Assembly: GCA_008802785.1 (NCBI GenBank)
Contig: VUYT01000031.1
Location: 155,120 to 219,119 of the forward strand
DNA: 64,000 nucleotides
Direction: 5' to 3'
DNA from: Symmetrospora coprosmae
Lineage: Eukaryota > Basidiomycota > Cystobasidiomycetes > Symmetrosporaceae
The notes beneath the pieces are model-generated. The model made no database searches, was not told the DNA's origin, and was given only the letters and a program-made list of their open reading frames with translations. Shown here one piece after another: positions 2,935 to 32,691 of this stretch; position 1 is the stretch's first letter; the number at the start of each line of letters is the position of its first letter. Both the position numbers and the translations under genes were made by a program.

Positions 2935-5755
2935 ATGTCCTTCAACAGCTCGACCGGCGGGATGGACTGGCCCCAGAGCCTTGTCTGGTCCAACAAGGTC
3001 GAGGTTCAGCTGCTCCTGGCAGACATACCCCTCATCGCGATGGGCGTGCTAGGCCTCGGATCTGCCATGCTTCTGCAATTGAGCAGCCGTCTGTGGGTGA
3101 CTGCGACACCTACCTGCGAGTCCTGAACCACGACATGGCTAATTGGCATCCACTGCCTATCTGGATCCTCCTCCTTCTCAGATCGCGGTGAGTGCCCCTG
3201 CATCCCCCGCATGCCTGACTTGTATGCATGCTCACAGACCCCGGCCTGTTCGCACCCAGCGAGTCCCTTCTCCTCACCTCGGCGATGCTGCTATCCTTCT
3301 GCACTGGCTTCTTCCATCTTTTATCTCTGCTCCACTCGGAGGATATCGTGGCCAACGCCGAATACGCCGGTTCCAGCGCACTTAATGTGCTCTCTGAGCT
3401 GTTCGACGGCGCTTCTGCCGCTCTGGTCGTTGTCTTCATCTACTTCCGCCTTGTGCAGCTGATGAGCTTCAGCAGCAAAGAGTGCGAGGACCAGCACAAC
3501 AGCGAGATCTCGTACTTTATGAGCGAAAAAGACGAGTTTGGAGTACAGATCAAGTGCAGCATCTACGCTGCGCTCTCGAGCCTGGTCACTATGCGGATCG
3601 CCTTTGCGACAGCAGTGAGTGCGATGCACCTCAAACATCGGTGTATAGAGCCTGAAAAGTCTTCCCCATAGACCCTGCTCTTCGCCCTCGAGGTCGCGTG
3701 GCGTCACCTGCTCCTCGGTCAGCGCAACCCGAGCTTCCAGCCCGTCTATCTGCTGAGCAACGTCGTCCACTTTCTTCTCCTCGTGAGTTGTTCTCTCGCC
3801 TCGCAGCATCAGCTTGCACCGATTGAACAAGCTTGTTCGCTATCGTTTCCCTTCGCAGCTCGGAGCAAGCGGTATTGTCGTGATGGAGCTCGTTCGAAGC
3901 AAGAAGCGCGGCAGATTTGCGCACTGCTGGCTTCCGATGCTAGCCGGGCTCGTTATCGACACTTCCGTCAAAATTGCTGGCTTCCCCGTCCTGGGATTCA
4001 GCATTACGCCCCTGGCCCGTCTCTTCTCCGCTGCGACTCTGTACATCTGGCTGCTGGACTTGCTCGTTTACGACTTCAAGCGCGAGCTGTCGGCTTCCAA
4101 TTTCAGTTCTCCTGCTGGGACGCCCTACACCGAAAACGGCAACAGTCTGGATAGCGCTGCTACTGGCTCTTCGAGCTCGGGTGCGACTTCGTCATCGTCG
4201 AGGCGTGGCCCCCGGCCTCTGCTGCCGCCAAAGCAGCTGCGCCTGCTCGTCACCTCGCCTTTCAGAGTCGACTCGCCCCGGAAGACTGCCAACTCGCTCT
4301 CGCCATCCGTGGCACAGGCACAGGCTAGTCTAGCCGAGATTATGCAGGAAGAGTCAGGGTGGCAGCACAGAAAGTCCTTGTCTATCGGACCCATCATCCG
4401 ACGAACGAGCAGGCTGCCTTCGTGGCTCATGGTCACCGGAACTGGGAAAAGCACCAGGGGCAAGAGAGGGTCGTCCGATAGCGGGGATGGTATCCTCGAT
4501 GTCGACATCGAGCAGCAGGCTGGTCCTGCCGAGCTCGGGTCGGACTCTGATAGCGGCCAGGCGGCATCACACCACCACAAAGCGGGTCGAACACCTTCGA
4601 GCAGTCTGCAGTCGATCGAGCCTCCAATCACCAAGCAGAGTGCCATGCACTCACCCCGGCCATCCGTGTCCTCGACTAGTGGAGGAAGGTACGATCGGCG
4701 AGGCACCAGGCTTGACTCGCCCATCGAGGTCGAGATGCCGTTCGGCGGCAGTAACGTCAGCCGCAGCGTCAGCACCGAATCATCCCGCATCACATCGCCG
4801 ATCGCAGTCAGGGCCAGGTACCCCATCTTTGCAGCTGCGAACCTCCCATCGATGAACGAAGCGGTTGACGAGATACAGGAGGGCGAGACCCGTCTAGTTC
4901 CCACGCCTGCTAGCGAGAGGCTTCACGCTACTACCTTTTCCAATCACTCCAGCTACCACTCGACCCCATCCGGTAACCCGTCGCTGAACTCTCGAGAGAG
5001 CGCCATCTCGCTCTCGTACTTCCCTCGTCCGCCGTCACCGAGCTCTCCGAAGAACCATGAGAGCACGCAGTCAGGCACGGTACCCGCCGGCGCATTCTTC
5101 CAGGATAAGCCACGCGTCCACCGGCGTACGTCAATGGCGTCCGAGGGTTCGCTTGCCCCGCCGCAGATGCCCGCTGCGCTGGCCCACCAGCACCAGCACC
5201 AGCACCAATTGAGCTGGCAGAGTTCTGACACGTTCGCTGGGAGTGTGGATAGTCTAGTCCCGCCTGGAGAGCACGGCAGGGGTTTCAACGTGACTTCGTG
5301 AGTCGCTTCATGCCTTTCCTCCCGGAGAAGCTCACACCTAGCTGAGATGACGGTATGGCACTGACAGCTTCATTGGAGCGTCAGCTGGTCCTGGGGAGCA
5401 GCAGGCCCGTCCGAGTACGCCCGACTCTTTCCGCGGAGGCGCGACCATCATGCGCGCCAACTCTGTCACACGGCACTCGGCCAAGCTGCTCGATAGGACC
5501 GCTTCTCTGCGCCAGTCGCGCACTTCATCGATCAAAGGCGCGTCTGTCACGCTGGCTACTTCGGCTCTCCCTCCTCGATCCGACTCGCTTAGACGGGGCG
5601 CAGGCCGCCACGGCACCCAGTCCCGCAGCAGCAGCGACGAGAGTCAGACAGGCTTCAAAGCTCCCGGCGTCTTCCTGACGAGGCCAGACGCTGTCAGAAC
5701 CGTTTCGCACAACGCTGGCGTTCTGCGCGACTTGGTTGGTTCGTACGCTCGCTGA
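2935..5755 (+). CDS. Multi-span membrane protein with long Ser-rich cytosolic tail
   Basis: No family recognised. The N-terminal 330 or so residues carry about seven hydrophobic segments (for example VQLLLADIPLIAMGVLG, SLLLTSAMLLSFCTGFF, AALVVVFIYFRLVQL, PVYLLSNVVHFLLL and LFSAATLYIWLLDLLVYDF). A tail of about 600 residues follows, rich in Ser, Pro and Arg, with a His-Gln run near 5185-5210. Supported introns: 3612-3671 (GTGAGT to ATAG), 3784-3859 (GTGAGT to GCAG) and 5300-5367. The last one adds a terminal exon 5368-5755 ending GSYAR. The first one or two introns (about 3089-3238) are uncertain because exon 1 and the exon starting DPGLFAP are in different frames. Seven spans plus a phosphorylatable tail resemble a receptor layout, but that is inference only. 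Confidence 0.7.
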
Positions 5756-6093
5756 ATGCCCTTCCACCGCGGTCCAAGTCCGGACGAGACGGCTCGCAGT
5801 CACCGGGTGTTCAGACCCGCGCAAACACGTCCCGATCCTGCATCTGCATGTCAGGCTGCTTACTTTGGCTAGCCCCGTACTTCAGTGCCCACCCTTTCAA
5901 GCAATATATGCGGGCCTTGGCCGGCTCTCCTGATGTTTGCCACAGAACCGCCCTTTGATGTGGCTGCACTGGCACTTGAGGAGCTTTCGCGGTACTAAAG
6001 CAGGGCGCAAGAGGTCTCTGCTTAACTCTGCATCTCCATCTCCGTTCGCACATCCCCTGACAGCTTGACGCTCCTCGCATTCGAAATCACAAC
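5756..6093. other. Intergenic region
   Basis: These 338 bases lie between the end of the multi-span membrane-protein gene and the next start on the same strand. It must hold the terminator of the first and the promoter of the second. No TATA box, repeat or coding segment was recognised. Confidence 0.35.
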
Positions 6094-6589
6094 ATGGCTC
6101 CCATCGCTTCCGTCTCGCACATCCCCGCAGCCGCCTATGCCGTGGCAGCGGCTACTCGCGCCTCCTCTGTCGTCGTCGCCAATGCAGCTGGCTCTGCAAC
6201 TGCCTCGACTGCCGACGCCGTCTCTGGGATCCGGCTGCGCGTGCTCCTTGAGGGTTCTCACCCATTCTGGCTGCGGATGCTCGTCGTGATGCTCTACGCG
6301 TGGGTCGGCGCGTGTCCCTCGTGCAAGAATCGCGCTGACGTCGTGTGCATGATCCCGCAGCACGCTCATGTCGCTCATCGGTCATTCCGTGCTCCTGCTC
6401 ATTGCATCGGCCTGCCAGAGCGTCTCCAATGCCATCGACAGCTTCCGGCAGCGCCCTATCCGACTCGACGAGTACTCGGAGGTCCCGCAGAGCAGTACCG
6501 CCGTCGAGCACTTTGAAGGTGCCACGACCGTGCTTCTGCCTCGCGTTGACTGCTGCTGTGACCGGTGCCCATCTCTTGAGAAAGCTTGA
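6094..6589 (+). CDS. Small hypothetical membrane protein
   Basis: Not recognised. Two exons are supported: the first ends WVGA, the second starts after CCGCAG at about 6360 and continues TLMSLIGHSVLL. Donor GTGTCC and acceptor CCGCAG enclose an intron of about 57 nt; splicing removes the stretch of Cys and His codons that would otherwise interrupt the hydrophobic run. The product is about 146 residues. It has an Ala/Val/Ser-rich N-terminus, one long hydrophobic region (FWLRMLVVMLYAWVG then LIGHSVLLLIASA) that could form a hairpin, and a polar tail with DEYSEVPQ that ends in a Cys cluster (CCCDRC). The 3' end might be altered by a further intron. Location is inferred to be a membrane; function is unknown. 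Confidence 0.5.
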
Positions 6590-28958: not shown

Positions 28959-31900
28959 CTACTGCACTTCGTGTGCGATGCTGCCTTGCAAAAGTCGTCT
29001 CTCTGACATACCACTCATTACAGCCGTCAACGCGGCGTCCTTCTTCTGCAAGTGCTTGAGCACCAGTCGCGCCAGCTTTTCCTGGCCCCCCTGATCGCCT
29101 TTCATTGTAGCTTTCGGCGATTCGAACGTCTCGTCGGCAATGCGGACGCTCAGCTGCATCGCTTTCGCCGCGCCACCGCTTCCCAGAGGCGCTGCATCTA
29201 CCTTCCACTGCGGTGTTGGTCGCTTCGTTGCATTGCAATACTCTGCACCATGCGGAGGAGGAGGAGACTCTTCAGACTTGCACGCTGCGCTCGGCATCTG
29301 CATAGACACCCGACTCACCTTCGAGCTGCACGACGTGCGACACTTTGAGCTTTGGCTGTGGCTTTGGCTTGTCCAGCGTGATCTTGAGCTCGTCGTCCGA
29401 CCCGCTGTCCTTGCCCAGCTCCTCCGCCTGCGCTGCCCTTCTCGCCGGAATAGTATCCTCGCGCTCCTGCTTGACCTGTGCGGCATGCGCCAGATCAACC
29501 GCGAGCTCCCCCCTCGGCGCCAGTGCTTTCAGCATCGTGAGCTTGAGCTTGCCGATGATGTCGTCCTCGAGCGCCATGCGAGAGACTGCGTCTTTGGCGG
29601 CGGCTTTGCCCGTGTAGATCATGTCCGTTTTGTAGATCGAGACCGGACTGGTCTTGACTGTTAGAAAGGCGCCGTACAGCGCTTCGAGAAGAGCGGGAGG
29701 AAAGTTGGGTCAGCCACGAAACAGCAGTAGCGTTGAAGCACAGCCACACCCACTGGTGTGCTCCTTCGTGGTTAGGTCATAATGCGGTCGCTCCGCGTCT
29801 TCATGACCCAGAAAGAGCTGGCAGACCTGATGCAGGTAGCTGACCGGCTGACTGAACGGATCCACTTTCACCTCTGGCGAATCTTCACGAGCCAAAGCTG
29901 GCGGTCCATCTGGGGCTTCTCGCCTCCTCCTGGCGATCGCAGCAGGACCCCATTCCCTGTCAATGAGTGCCAGCAGACCCTCATGTACCGCCTTCTGCGC
30001 CGCTGCCTCTTGAGCCAGTCTGCGATTAGGATAGGACAGCGGGGTGGAGAAGGCGTACTCTTTCCCAGCTGGATCACGAAGCAGCATGGTCCCGCCGTAC
30101 AAGCTGCCATCGGCCGATGTTTGACACGTATAGGAGATGTGATCCGCCTTTGCCGCGTCCCCGATCTTGCTTGTGGCTTTCTCATCGATCGCAGTCATGT
30201 ACGTCTGCGCTGCCGACGTCTGCGCACTTATCTGAAGGTACTGCGAAACGTCCGCAGCGAAATGTCTTGTCCGCTCTGCTGGTCCGGAGCTTGTGCTAGA
30301 ATCTGCACTGAGTATAGCACTCGTCTCTCCACTGGCCGGGTAGCCTCCTCGAGTTTGCTGCTGAGACAAGTACTGCTGGCGTGCTACCAGCGGATTGGAA
30401 GAGAGACTCGGCTGAGTGGGTGCCCATCGCCCGCCATCACCTGCTTGCGACGGTCTAGCCGTCCGCGTATCGACGTAAGGTGGTGGTGCCGTCAAAGCCT
30501 CGTGTGTGACGGGCGCTTGCACGACCGGTACCAAAGGGCGGCTGTTGGCGAACGTGGCATATGGATACGAGCCAGCGTCGCCACTGACGCCTGTCGGGAT
30601 ATCGTCTGCTCTGTAAAGATTCGGATAGCCGCCCGGTCCTGCGAGAATGTGCCCGAACAGGTCATCGCTTCGATGAGAGCCAGTCGTGCTGCTGGGAGTT
30701 CCGGAACGAGATAATGAAGATGACGGAGCGAGCGATGGCGACCGTCCAAACTTGCTGACCTCCTTGGCTTGCTTCGCTTCCTCTACCAAGCCCTGCTTGA
30801 CAGCCAGCTTGGCGACGCTCTCCTTGGCTGCCTTCTTTGTCGGAAATTCGGGTACAATTTCGTACCGTAGGACTCGCATATCTGCCAGTCTTGCCGTCAG
30901 TGTGCAGCCGAAGCGTGCGTCTGCCGTTCCGTGAATCAGTGCTGTGCTGTGCTGCATGCTAGCCAGACCCTTGACTGGATGGCACTTACTGATGCTGCGA
31001 GCGAGAGTATGCATCGGGCCAATCTCGGAAAACTCAAAAGCAAGAACGTCTGGTCGTCCGGTGTAGGCTTGCATAGAGACATTCAGGTATGCCACAGCGC
31101 TGAAGTGTTTAGACAAGTCAGCTTGCGCCCGCTCAAACCCGACACTGATCACAGTCTCGGGGACCCACTTCTCCAGATAGTCCGCATCTTCCGGCTGAAC
31201 CGTACTCGCCTTCGGCGGGATAAGCGACGAGAACCCAGCCTGCCTCGGACCCAGTCTGTTGATTGCGAGCGTCGACGCCTGCAGAAGCCGCCGTTGTGCC
31301 TCCAGCTCAGCCTTAAGGCCAGACCGCGCTGCAAGTCTGCACACTGCCTCCTTTGCATCCTTCTTCGATTTAAGACAGGGCGACATGTCGTAATGCCGCA
31401 CGTCGTCCGGCTTGATGGCGATACGGAGCTTGGCGCCATGCAGTTCCGCTGCAGATGGAGTAAGTACATCAGTCGGAGTCGTGATGCAGAGCACATGCGG
31501 ACGGTGAAGACGCACTGCCGTCTCGTATTGCTGACGTGTACTCGCACTCCATGGCCAGCGGGTTCCTCGTCACCTCCTGCACCAGCTGCCCCAGCGTACC
31601 TGCCGAGTTCTCCTCTTCGACGGGATCGTGCTCCTCTAGAGTCAGCGGGACTGGTACGCCCAGCTGCCGGCATATCTTGCTTGTGAAGGAATTGTGCAGC
31701 TTTAGCAGCGTGACGATCCCTTCTTGGAGAGCGAGGCGGGTTGCTGCCTCCTTGGCGGCTTTTGCGGAAGTGAAATCGACATTTGTGCGGTACATCTCGT
31801 GGAAATCGGGCGTTGTGCGGACCGTTAGGGTGCAGCCGTGGAGGCGATAATTCCCGACGGCTACATCAGGGTTGTGAGCGTCAGGGAAGGGGGAGGACTA

Positions 31901-32691
31901 GCTAACAAGCCCAGCCCGTGCTCACGGGACGATCCGGACTCGTGTGCATACAGCAGAGCGTGCGAGGGTGTTTCGACGCAATACCTCTGGACAGCCAGGT
32001 TTAACGCCGTGACAGGATTCTGCGCAGATGCGACCGTTTCTTCTTCCTGGTTGCTAAGGATGGGGACGATGTTGAATCGCTCATCTCGCCTCGGCAGCGG
32101 CTTCGGGCGGAAATGGGGCGCATTGTCCGTGCCGATTCGGTCAGTCTGCGCCATGCTTTCCTGTGCGAGGTCGAGAATGCCTTTGTGTAGGGCATACTCG
32201 GACACCGCACGCTTCGCAGCGCGCTTCGAAGGGAAGGCTGCCTCAGAGGTATATGTGCGAGTCCCGCTTGGCGGGATAGCGAGCGTCAGCTTGCAGATAT
32301 AGCTTCGCTTCGCTGCGTTCCTGTAGCAGTGATAGATTGGCGCCTGAGGCGAGACCTTCCGCCAGAACTTCTGGAGATACAGCGTAGGGCTACGTGCGTG
32401 TGCAAGAAGTGATAGAGTCAGTCAGCAACGAGCCCGTCCGACTTGAGGAAGGCCAAACAGCTTGACAACGCACTTGGTCATGCGCTCGTCCGGGTCATCA
32501 ACCAGGTCCCGGTAGGGCTCCTGCGTGTCCATGTCCGAGCCAGACTCGTCGCTGAGGACTGCAGGATCGCCATCGACTCGCAATGTTGATTCCAGACTGA
32601 CTTCCATCCTGCTGCCTTTTCGGAAGCCCACTCCAGATGGGTCGCCGAGGCCCTCGCCGCCACCATCACCCTGTACGTAGAAGTCCGTCAT
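28959..32691 (-). CDS. Protein with about seven tandem dsRBD-like folds
   Basis: Large protein of about 1,100 residues, starting at ATG 32691 (MTDFYVQGDGGG). It repeats a pattern typical of dsRNA-binding folds: a helix, strands with G-x-x-L, then F-x-x-K-x-x-AKE-x-V-x-x-A-x-x-G. Copies lie near 32390-32150 (KRAAKRAVSEYALHKG), 32030-31700 (AKAAKEAATRLALQEG), 31610-31330 (KKDAKEAVCRLAARSG), 31150-30790 (KKAAKESVAKLAVKQG), 30260-29970 (RRLAQEAAAQKAVHEG), 29850-29550 (GKAAAKDAVSRMALEDD) and 29260-29030 (GGQEKLARLVLKHLQ). A Ser/Pro-rich linker separates copies four and five. No catalytic RNase III, deaminase or helicase motif is visible. At least six introns; the first junction has two possible acceptors. 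RNA binding is inferred from fold resemblance. Confidence 0.65.

Follow-up and report, generated by a model that had tools for sequence, protein, structure and literature searches.

The stretch of DNA analysed here (the window; 64,000 nucleotides (nt) of the basidiomycete Symmetrospora coprosmae, on contig VUYT01000031.1) carries on its minus strand a predicted gene for a protein with seven repeats, D1 to D7, that resemble double-stranded RNA-binding domains (dsRBDs). The gene occupies 28959..32691, with its ATG at 32691 and its stop codon ending at 28959, at the place and on the strand given by a first-pass annotation of this DNA, and its seven exons (exons 1-4 at 32691-32474, 32389-31926, 31860-31516 and 31448-30990; exons 5-7 at 30920-29754, 29681-29319 and 29242-28959) are separated by six GT-AG introns of 65-84 nt and join into a single open frame of 1099 amino acids (aa). 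The protein begins with an acidic segment (residues 1-72, isoelectric point (pI) 4.1), which is followed by D1-D4, a Ser/Pro-rich linker and D5-D7, all encoded on the minus strand. D1 (32164..32389, residues 73-148) has the dsRBD fold and reads KRAAK in region 3; D2 (31703..32019, residues 197-280), D3 (31303..31609, residues 312-391) and D4 (30775..31104, residues 458-544) are split by introns 2, 3 and 4 and read AKAAK, KKDAK and KKAAK in the same region, respectively. The linker (30259..30774, residues 545-716), which the first-pass annotation had likewise placed between copies four and five, is conserved and contains the motifs SRSGTP and PPPY. D5 (29962..30258, residues 717-815) has an extra segment inserted after helix 1 and RRLAQ in region 3, D6 (29545..29856, residues 851-930) is split by intron 5 and has KAAAK, and the divergent D7 (29034..29349, residues 996-1075) has DQGGQ. 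The linker sits within one exon, and since that exon also holds the second half of D4, D5 and the first half of D6, the repeats belong to one gene and not to two. No catalytic domain was detected in the spliced protein by Pfam at E up to 10, as had been expected from the first inspection, and no usable family emerged when the protein, its exons and its relatives were scanned with Pfam and NCBIfam.

The relationship of the repeats to one another was assessed by a leave-one-out test, in which a profile from six copies scores the seventh against 1000 shuffles of that copy, a control that accounts for composition only. D1, D2, D3, D4 and D6 scored 31.2, 42.9, 28.9, 30.6 and 38.2 bits, respectively, and none of the 1000 shuffles reached any of these values. 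D5 scored 13.8 bits, also above all 1000 shuffles, with a narrow margin (best shuffle 13.7), and the 2.9 bits of D7 were reached by 20 of 1000. Most of the signal resides in the halves from beta2 to alpha2 (0/1000 for D1-D6, 91/1000 for D7); with the first halves alone, D4 and D6 were the sole copies that no shuffle equalled, and 9, 27, 99, 193 and 417 of 1000 shuffles reached D7, D2, D3, D1 and D5, respectively. At the level of sequence, D1-D6 are six siblings and D7 is a divergent copy, weakly a sibling, and the seven-fold repeat seen by the first-pass annotation is thereby recovered. No further copy was found elsewhere in the window, where the next best open reading frame (ORF) scored 7.1 bits, and a search of the organism's own genome gave no match outside this gene and no second copy of it.

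The introns bear on how the repeats arose. Introns 2-6 are all in phase 1, and four of them lie in the loop between the first and second strands, namely intron 2 (31861..31925) in D2, intron 3 (31449..31515) in D3, intron 4 (30921..30989) in D4 and intron 5 (29682..29753) in D6, where they precede the second-strand landmark of an aromatic residue or His and a Gly by 7, 3, 3 and 2 residues, respectively. D1 and D5 have no intron at this loop, and D7 has its intron, the sixth, in helix 1. Such a pattern of same-loop, phase-1 introns is what would remain after duplication of a unit that already held an intron, and it supports the proposal that the repeats arose mainly by tandem duplication inside the gene; the splice sites were partly picked so that frame and domain continue, and the introns are thus supportive evidence and not independent proof.

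A homologue search with the whole protein, in which 7993 candidates were scored, gave no match at E up to 1; the candidates were restricted to sequences sharing exact words, and the lack of named relatives is therefore not proof of absence. A control with the neighbouring MFAP1 gene retrieved 1016 proteins at E up to 1e-10, and the named relatives among the 120 matches listed, which we take to be all basidiomycetes, indicate that the database contains many such fungi. When the exon-5 ORF was used as the query, three metagenome proteins were found (identity 95, 80 and 85%; query coverage 73, 68 and 62%); tblastn searches of viral contigs and of GTDB genome contigs found no relative. Among these three proteins (P0121, P0122 and P0123), P0121 and P0122 align from the start of the second half of D4 and P0123 from the second helix of D4, and all three alignments span the linker and D5 into the first half of D6. 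Identities to P0121, P0122 and P0123 are 47/48, 45/48 and 22/22 in the second half of D4, 172/172, 134/172 and 144/172 in the linker, and 97/99, 82/99 and 86/99 in D5, placing conservation of the linker near that of D5 and below that of the second half of D4. SRSGTP and PPPY, the latter being the kind of motif that WW domains bind, are kept by all three relatives, and near-D5 conservation of a linker carrying both is unusual for a plain spacer. The gene model, which was predicted from sequence, is partly supported by the same proteins: P0122 and P0123 cease to match right after the intron-5 donor, and P0121, the nearest relative, matches on to an in-frame stop inside intron 5. In P0121, the exons on either side of intron 4 are read in different frames, which an intron of another length would produce.

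With regard to the fold, an AlphaFold2 model of D1 shows alpha-beta-beta-beta-alpha (predicted local distance difference test score (pLDDT) 82.8) and matches dsRBD structures in both Foldseek and VIA. For D5 the mean pLDDT is 59; it is about 70-85 in the strands and in helix 2, and below 50 in helix 1. The dsRBD-type fold that the first-pass annotation had assigned, and had suggested checking by structure prediction, thus stands for D1 by structure, and the profile methods described below support a relationship of the whole set to dsRBDs; in D5 the model is partial and its helix 1 is not confident.

A profile search, also proposed by the first-pass annotation, compared the seven repeats with 177,635 Protein Data Bank (PDB) sequences and returned 13 matches at E up to 10, of which the top eight are all dsRBD chains (E 0.0033 to 0.45). 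The best is dsRBD1 of HYL1 (E 0.0033 and 0.0085), and the others are four matches to TRBP (E 0.0094 to 0.25), poxvirus E3 (E 0.048, over a 19-residue alignment) and PACT (E 0.45); the remaining five of the 13 are unrelated. The MAFFT alignment behind this search and behind the first hhalign run was poor in the N-terminal halves. By hhalign, the seven-repeat alignment matched five dsRBDs with a probability of 84.6, and D1-D6 matched six dsRBDs with a probability of 94.5 and a score of 41.0, the highest of 200 column-shuffled controls being 17.3. HYL1, one of these six references, had been chosen because no PDB sequence matched the repeats better; when it was left out, the five remaining references gave a probability of 78.0 and a score of 29.9 (controls at most 15.4). 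When D1-D7 were compared singly with the six-reference profile, their scores were reached by 0, 0, 1, 0, 2, 22 and 4 of 2000 shuffles (0, 1, 3, 0, 2, 17 and 3 in a repeat run), and without HYL1 by 1, 20, 15, 5, 19, 16 and 12 of 2000, or about 1% or less each; D7 scored 6.6 bits with six references and 5.1 bits without HYL1. The relationship between the repeats and dsRBDs, as judged from these profiles, stands, and much of its strength is likeness to the plant HYL1 domain. The gene is counted in the dsRBD fold superfamily and not in the Pfam dsrm family (PF00035), a search with which lists contigs C33 and C75 of the organism's own genome and not the seven-repeat gene. A ranking of the 1272 ORFs of the window on the six-reference profile, in which exons of this gene came 1st, 2nd and 4th, was rejected as evidence, since it failed its control: without HYL1 the exons came 4th and 12th, and the 619-aa ORF fell outside the first 12.

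Because the ranking failed without HYL1, less weight was given to the dsRBD interpretation and more to a rival, namely that the repeats derive from, or themselves are, Dicer-dimerisation domains (DUF283, PF03368), a dsRBD-like protein-protein module. Like the repeats, Dicer DUF283 has a dsRBD-like fold and a similar second helix, and the profile scores are comparable. Against a five-sequence DUF283 profile the repeats scored 28.6 (controls at most 16.3), which is below the dsRBD score obtained with HYL1 but level with that obtained without it, and for this reason it is no longer claimed that dsRBDs are clearly the closer of the two to the repeats. Unlike the repeats, however, DUF283 occurs as one copy, inside Dicer, and no Dicer chain is among the 13 PDB matches, which include dsRBD chains, although the library holds Dicer DUF283 chains. 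Moreover, with HYL1 included every repeat scores higher on the dsRBD profile, and D5 and D7 do so with or without it. A DUF283 origin seems unlikely to us, and we lean towards canonical dsRBDs; the fold class is identical in either case.

The copies differ in charge and in the motifs associated with RNA binding. The pI values of D1-D7 are 10.1, 7.1, 8.6, 8.9, 5.5, 6.0 and 9.4, D1 being strongly basic with a charge of about +10 and D5 and D6 being acidic. Inspection by eye, on which all the motif assignments here are based, finds the region-3 lysines (KKxAK) complete in D1, D3 and D4, partial in D2, D5 and D6, and absent in D7, and the region-2 His in D2 and D3 only, with Tyr or Phe in D1, D4, D5 and D6. 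The acidity of D5 and D6, the lack of lysines in D7 and the incomplete lysine motifs of D2, D5 and D6 speak against seven equal RNA binders. Multi-dsRBD proteins are described, in the part of PMC5716075 available, as combining copies that bind RNA (Type A) with copies that bind protein (Type B), and under this scheme D1, D3 and D4 look RNA-binding from their motifs and D7 protein-binding, D2, D5 and D6 being uncertain. The same features would suit a protein whose repeats are mostly degenerate dsRBDs that merely hold proteins together and bind no RNA, inasmuch as regions 1 and 2 are poorly preserved, D5 and D6 acidic and D7 without lysines. Against such a protein are the charge of D1 and the full lysine motifs of D1, D3 and D4, that of D4 (KKAAK) being invariant across the three relatives, and we consider it quite improbable.

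We consider it probable that the protein is a non-enzymatic, multivalent scaffold of seven dsRBD-fold domains, the fold being modelled for D1 only, in which RNA-binding and protein-binding copies are combined. Double-stranded or stem-loop RNA would most probably be bound by the basic N-terminal copies (D1 foremost, followed by D3 and D4), as their charge and lysine motif suggest, and the acidic or motif-less D5-D7, together with the conserved PPPY/SRSGTP linker, would most probably recruit protein partners. Several weak domains on a flexible chain would together hold long or multi-stem RNA tightly, with high total affinity, and select it by length, as is described for Staufen2, whose paired domains act together (PMC6477676, in the portion available). 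Several observations weigh against the scaffold as a whole. Pfam assigned no family to the spliced protein at E up to 10, the dsRBD scores of single repeats drop to 3.1-6.5 bits without HYL1, and the parity with DUF283 has been noted above. D5 folds only in part in a weak model; in Foldseek its top match is T7 Gp1.2, HYL1 coming second and fifth, and in VIA both dsRBDs and ribosome-hibernation factors appear, a mixed result that was not taken as proof. In addition, the pI of the whole protein is 7.2, most copies no longer show the canonical Glu of region 1 or G-P-x-H of region 2, and a Pfam scan of 20 neighbouring ORFs found no RNA interference (RNAi) gene among them.

The likeliest pathway for such a scaffold would be the handling of double-stranded RNA (dsRNA) in RNAi, or of structured mRNA in ribonucleoprotein particles (RNPs), and an RNAi co-factor and a messenger RNP (mRNP) scaffold are the leading readings of its role. 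As a Dicer or RNAi co-factor, it would be the functional counterpart of TRBP, Loqs, HYL1 and DRB4 and hand dsRNA to Dicer, perhaps via DUF283. Such a role is made possible by the Argonaute-type, Dicer and RNA-dependent RNA polymerase (RdRP) genes of the host genome, and dsRBD1 of HYL1 tops the PDB matches of the repeat profile. The available part of PMC12663654 describes an interaction of DUF283 with DRB4 and HYL1; by HMMER, both PAZ and dsRBD are missing from 1825 of 2911 predicted fungal Dicers, an absence that may reflect annotation limits according to the same source. Conversely, RDE1-5 from a Cryptococcus screen are described without a dsRBD array in the text available of PMC6643885, which states no known domain for Rde2 and Rde5, and the host Dicer on contig C7 has, by eye, a divergent C-terminal dsRBD of its own. 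We put this co-factor role forward tentatively, as possible. A Staufen-like mRNP scaffold, which would bind stem-loops of mRNA for localisation or decay, is somewhat doubtful: D1 is matched equally well by many other dsRBDs, and the 619-aa exon ORF has no sequence relation to Staufen or to any PDB chain (phmmer, 0 matches at E up to 10), and its seven copies exceed the number in Staufen.

Known multi-dsRBD systems resemble the predicted scaffold in part. Staufen of animals is, like it, a non-enzymatic chain of dsRBDs of which some bind RNA and some are pseudo-dsRBDs, but Staufen has three to five copies, up to five dsRBD-type domains (three to four plus a C-terminal dsRBD-like one) against seven here. 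The Dicer partners TRBP, PACT and Loqs of animals, in which Type A copies occur together with Type B ones, and HYL1 and DRB4 of plants are dsRBD-only, as is this protein, but carry two to three dsRBDs in animal or plant hosts, whereas this fungal protein has seven; it therefore resembles the DRB/TRBP family in having no other domain and departs from it in copy number. ADAR and PKR also have several dsRBDs per chain, but neither the deaminase domain of the former nor the kinase domain of the latter was found here by Pfam. As far as the available part of PMC5435087 goes, animal and plant adaptors made of dsRBDs alone carry two or three of them, in a set that was selected for that number, and no major variation on this was seen other than a possible plant protein with one dsrm. 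The view of the first-pass annotation that multi-dsRBD proteins are known mainly from animals was too narrow, plant DRBs having two (PMC5435087, same part). The largest arrays described in the portions of the literature available have five dsRBDs (PMC6477676; Hydra ADAR, unpublished data cited in PMC11334849), and HYL1-like proteins are stated in the accessible text of PMC9098223 not to have been found in fungi. No protein with six or seven dsRBDs was found in a search confined to the available portions of the open-access literature and not extended to architecture databases, so that larger arrays may exist unreported; within that literature, seven copies exceed any dsRBD array found described.

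A seven-copy fungal array that Pfam does not report suggests that the multi-dsRBD device evolved again and that such genes can be overlooked when fungal RNA-binding proteins are sought by domain scans. A more specific proposal, that an RNAi adaptor consisting only of seven dsRBDs arose independently in a basidiomycete lineage, as a third origin of multi-dsRBD Dicer partners beside those of animals and plants, seems rather doubtful to us at present; if true, this adaptor would be the largest such array found described. The gene is a good candidate for a scaffold that handles RNA and has yet to be studied, and it offers an entry to how basidiomycetes, with many Dicers in which no dsRBD is detected, recognise dsRNA.

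The window belongs to contig C24 of an assembly of 20.05 Mb in 77 contigs, and this contig is an ordinary nuclear one. Pfam matches were obtained in 10 of the 20 neighbouring ORFs scanned, including SRP68 (two ORFs), phosphatidylserine decarboxylase, FYVE and MFAP1, and further TRAPP, Sec20, CTLH, kinase and PAF-AH. The fungal host indicated at first pass agrees with the best named relatives of MFAP1, a single marker, which are Microbotryomycetes, Rhodosporidiobolus and Sporobolomyces and which point to a basidiomycete, probably of the Pucciniomycotina. Elsewhere in the genome, Piwi-domain (Argonaute-type) matches lie on C10 and on C35, where they fall at two neighbouring places near 93649-100053 and some contain stop codons, maybe introns or damage. 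The Dicer on C7 (20000-29500) has two RNase III domains and DUF283, and the C-terminal dsRBD seen in it by eye was not reported by the Pfam search of the genome. Further RNase III matches lie on C49 and C22, and RdRP matches on C2 and C55. Beside the two dsrm matches on C33 (C33:380500-390000, minus strand), ORFs 4403-4867 and 5928-6434 are tandem, similar and small; their RNase III matches (E 0.0043 and 0.0019) are below the Pfam cut-off, and they are possibly duplicated short RNase III proteins, to judge from these matches. The third dsrm match of the genome lies in C75:565500-573000 (ORFs 4709-5551 and 3711-4277, minus strand), in a protein that by eye resembles mL44-type mitochondrial ribosomal proteins.

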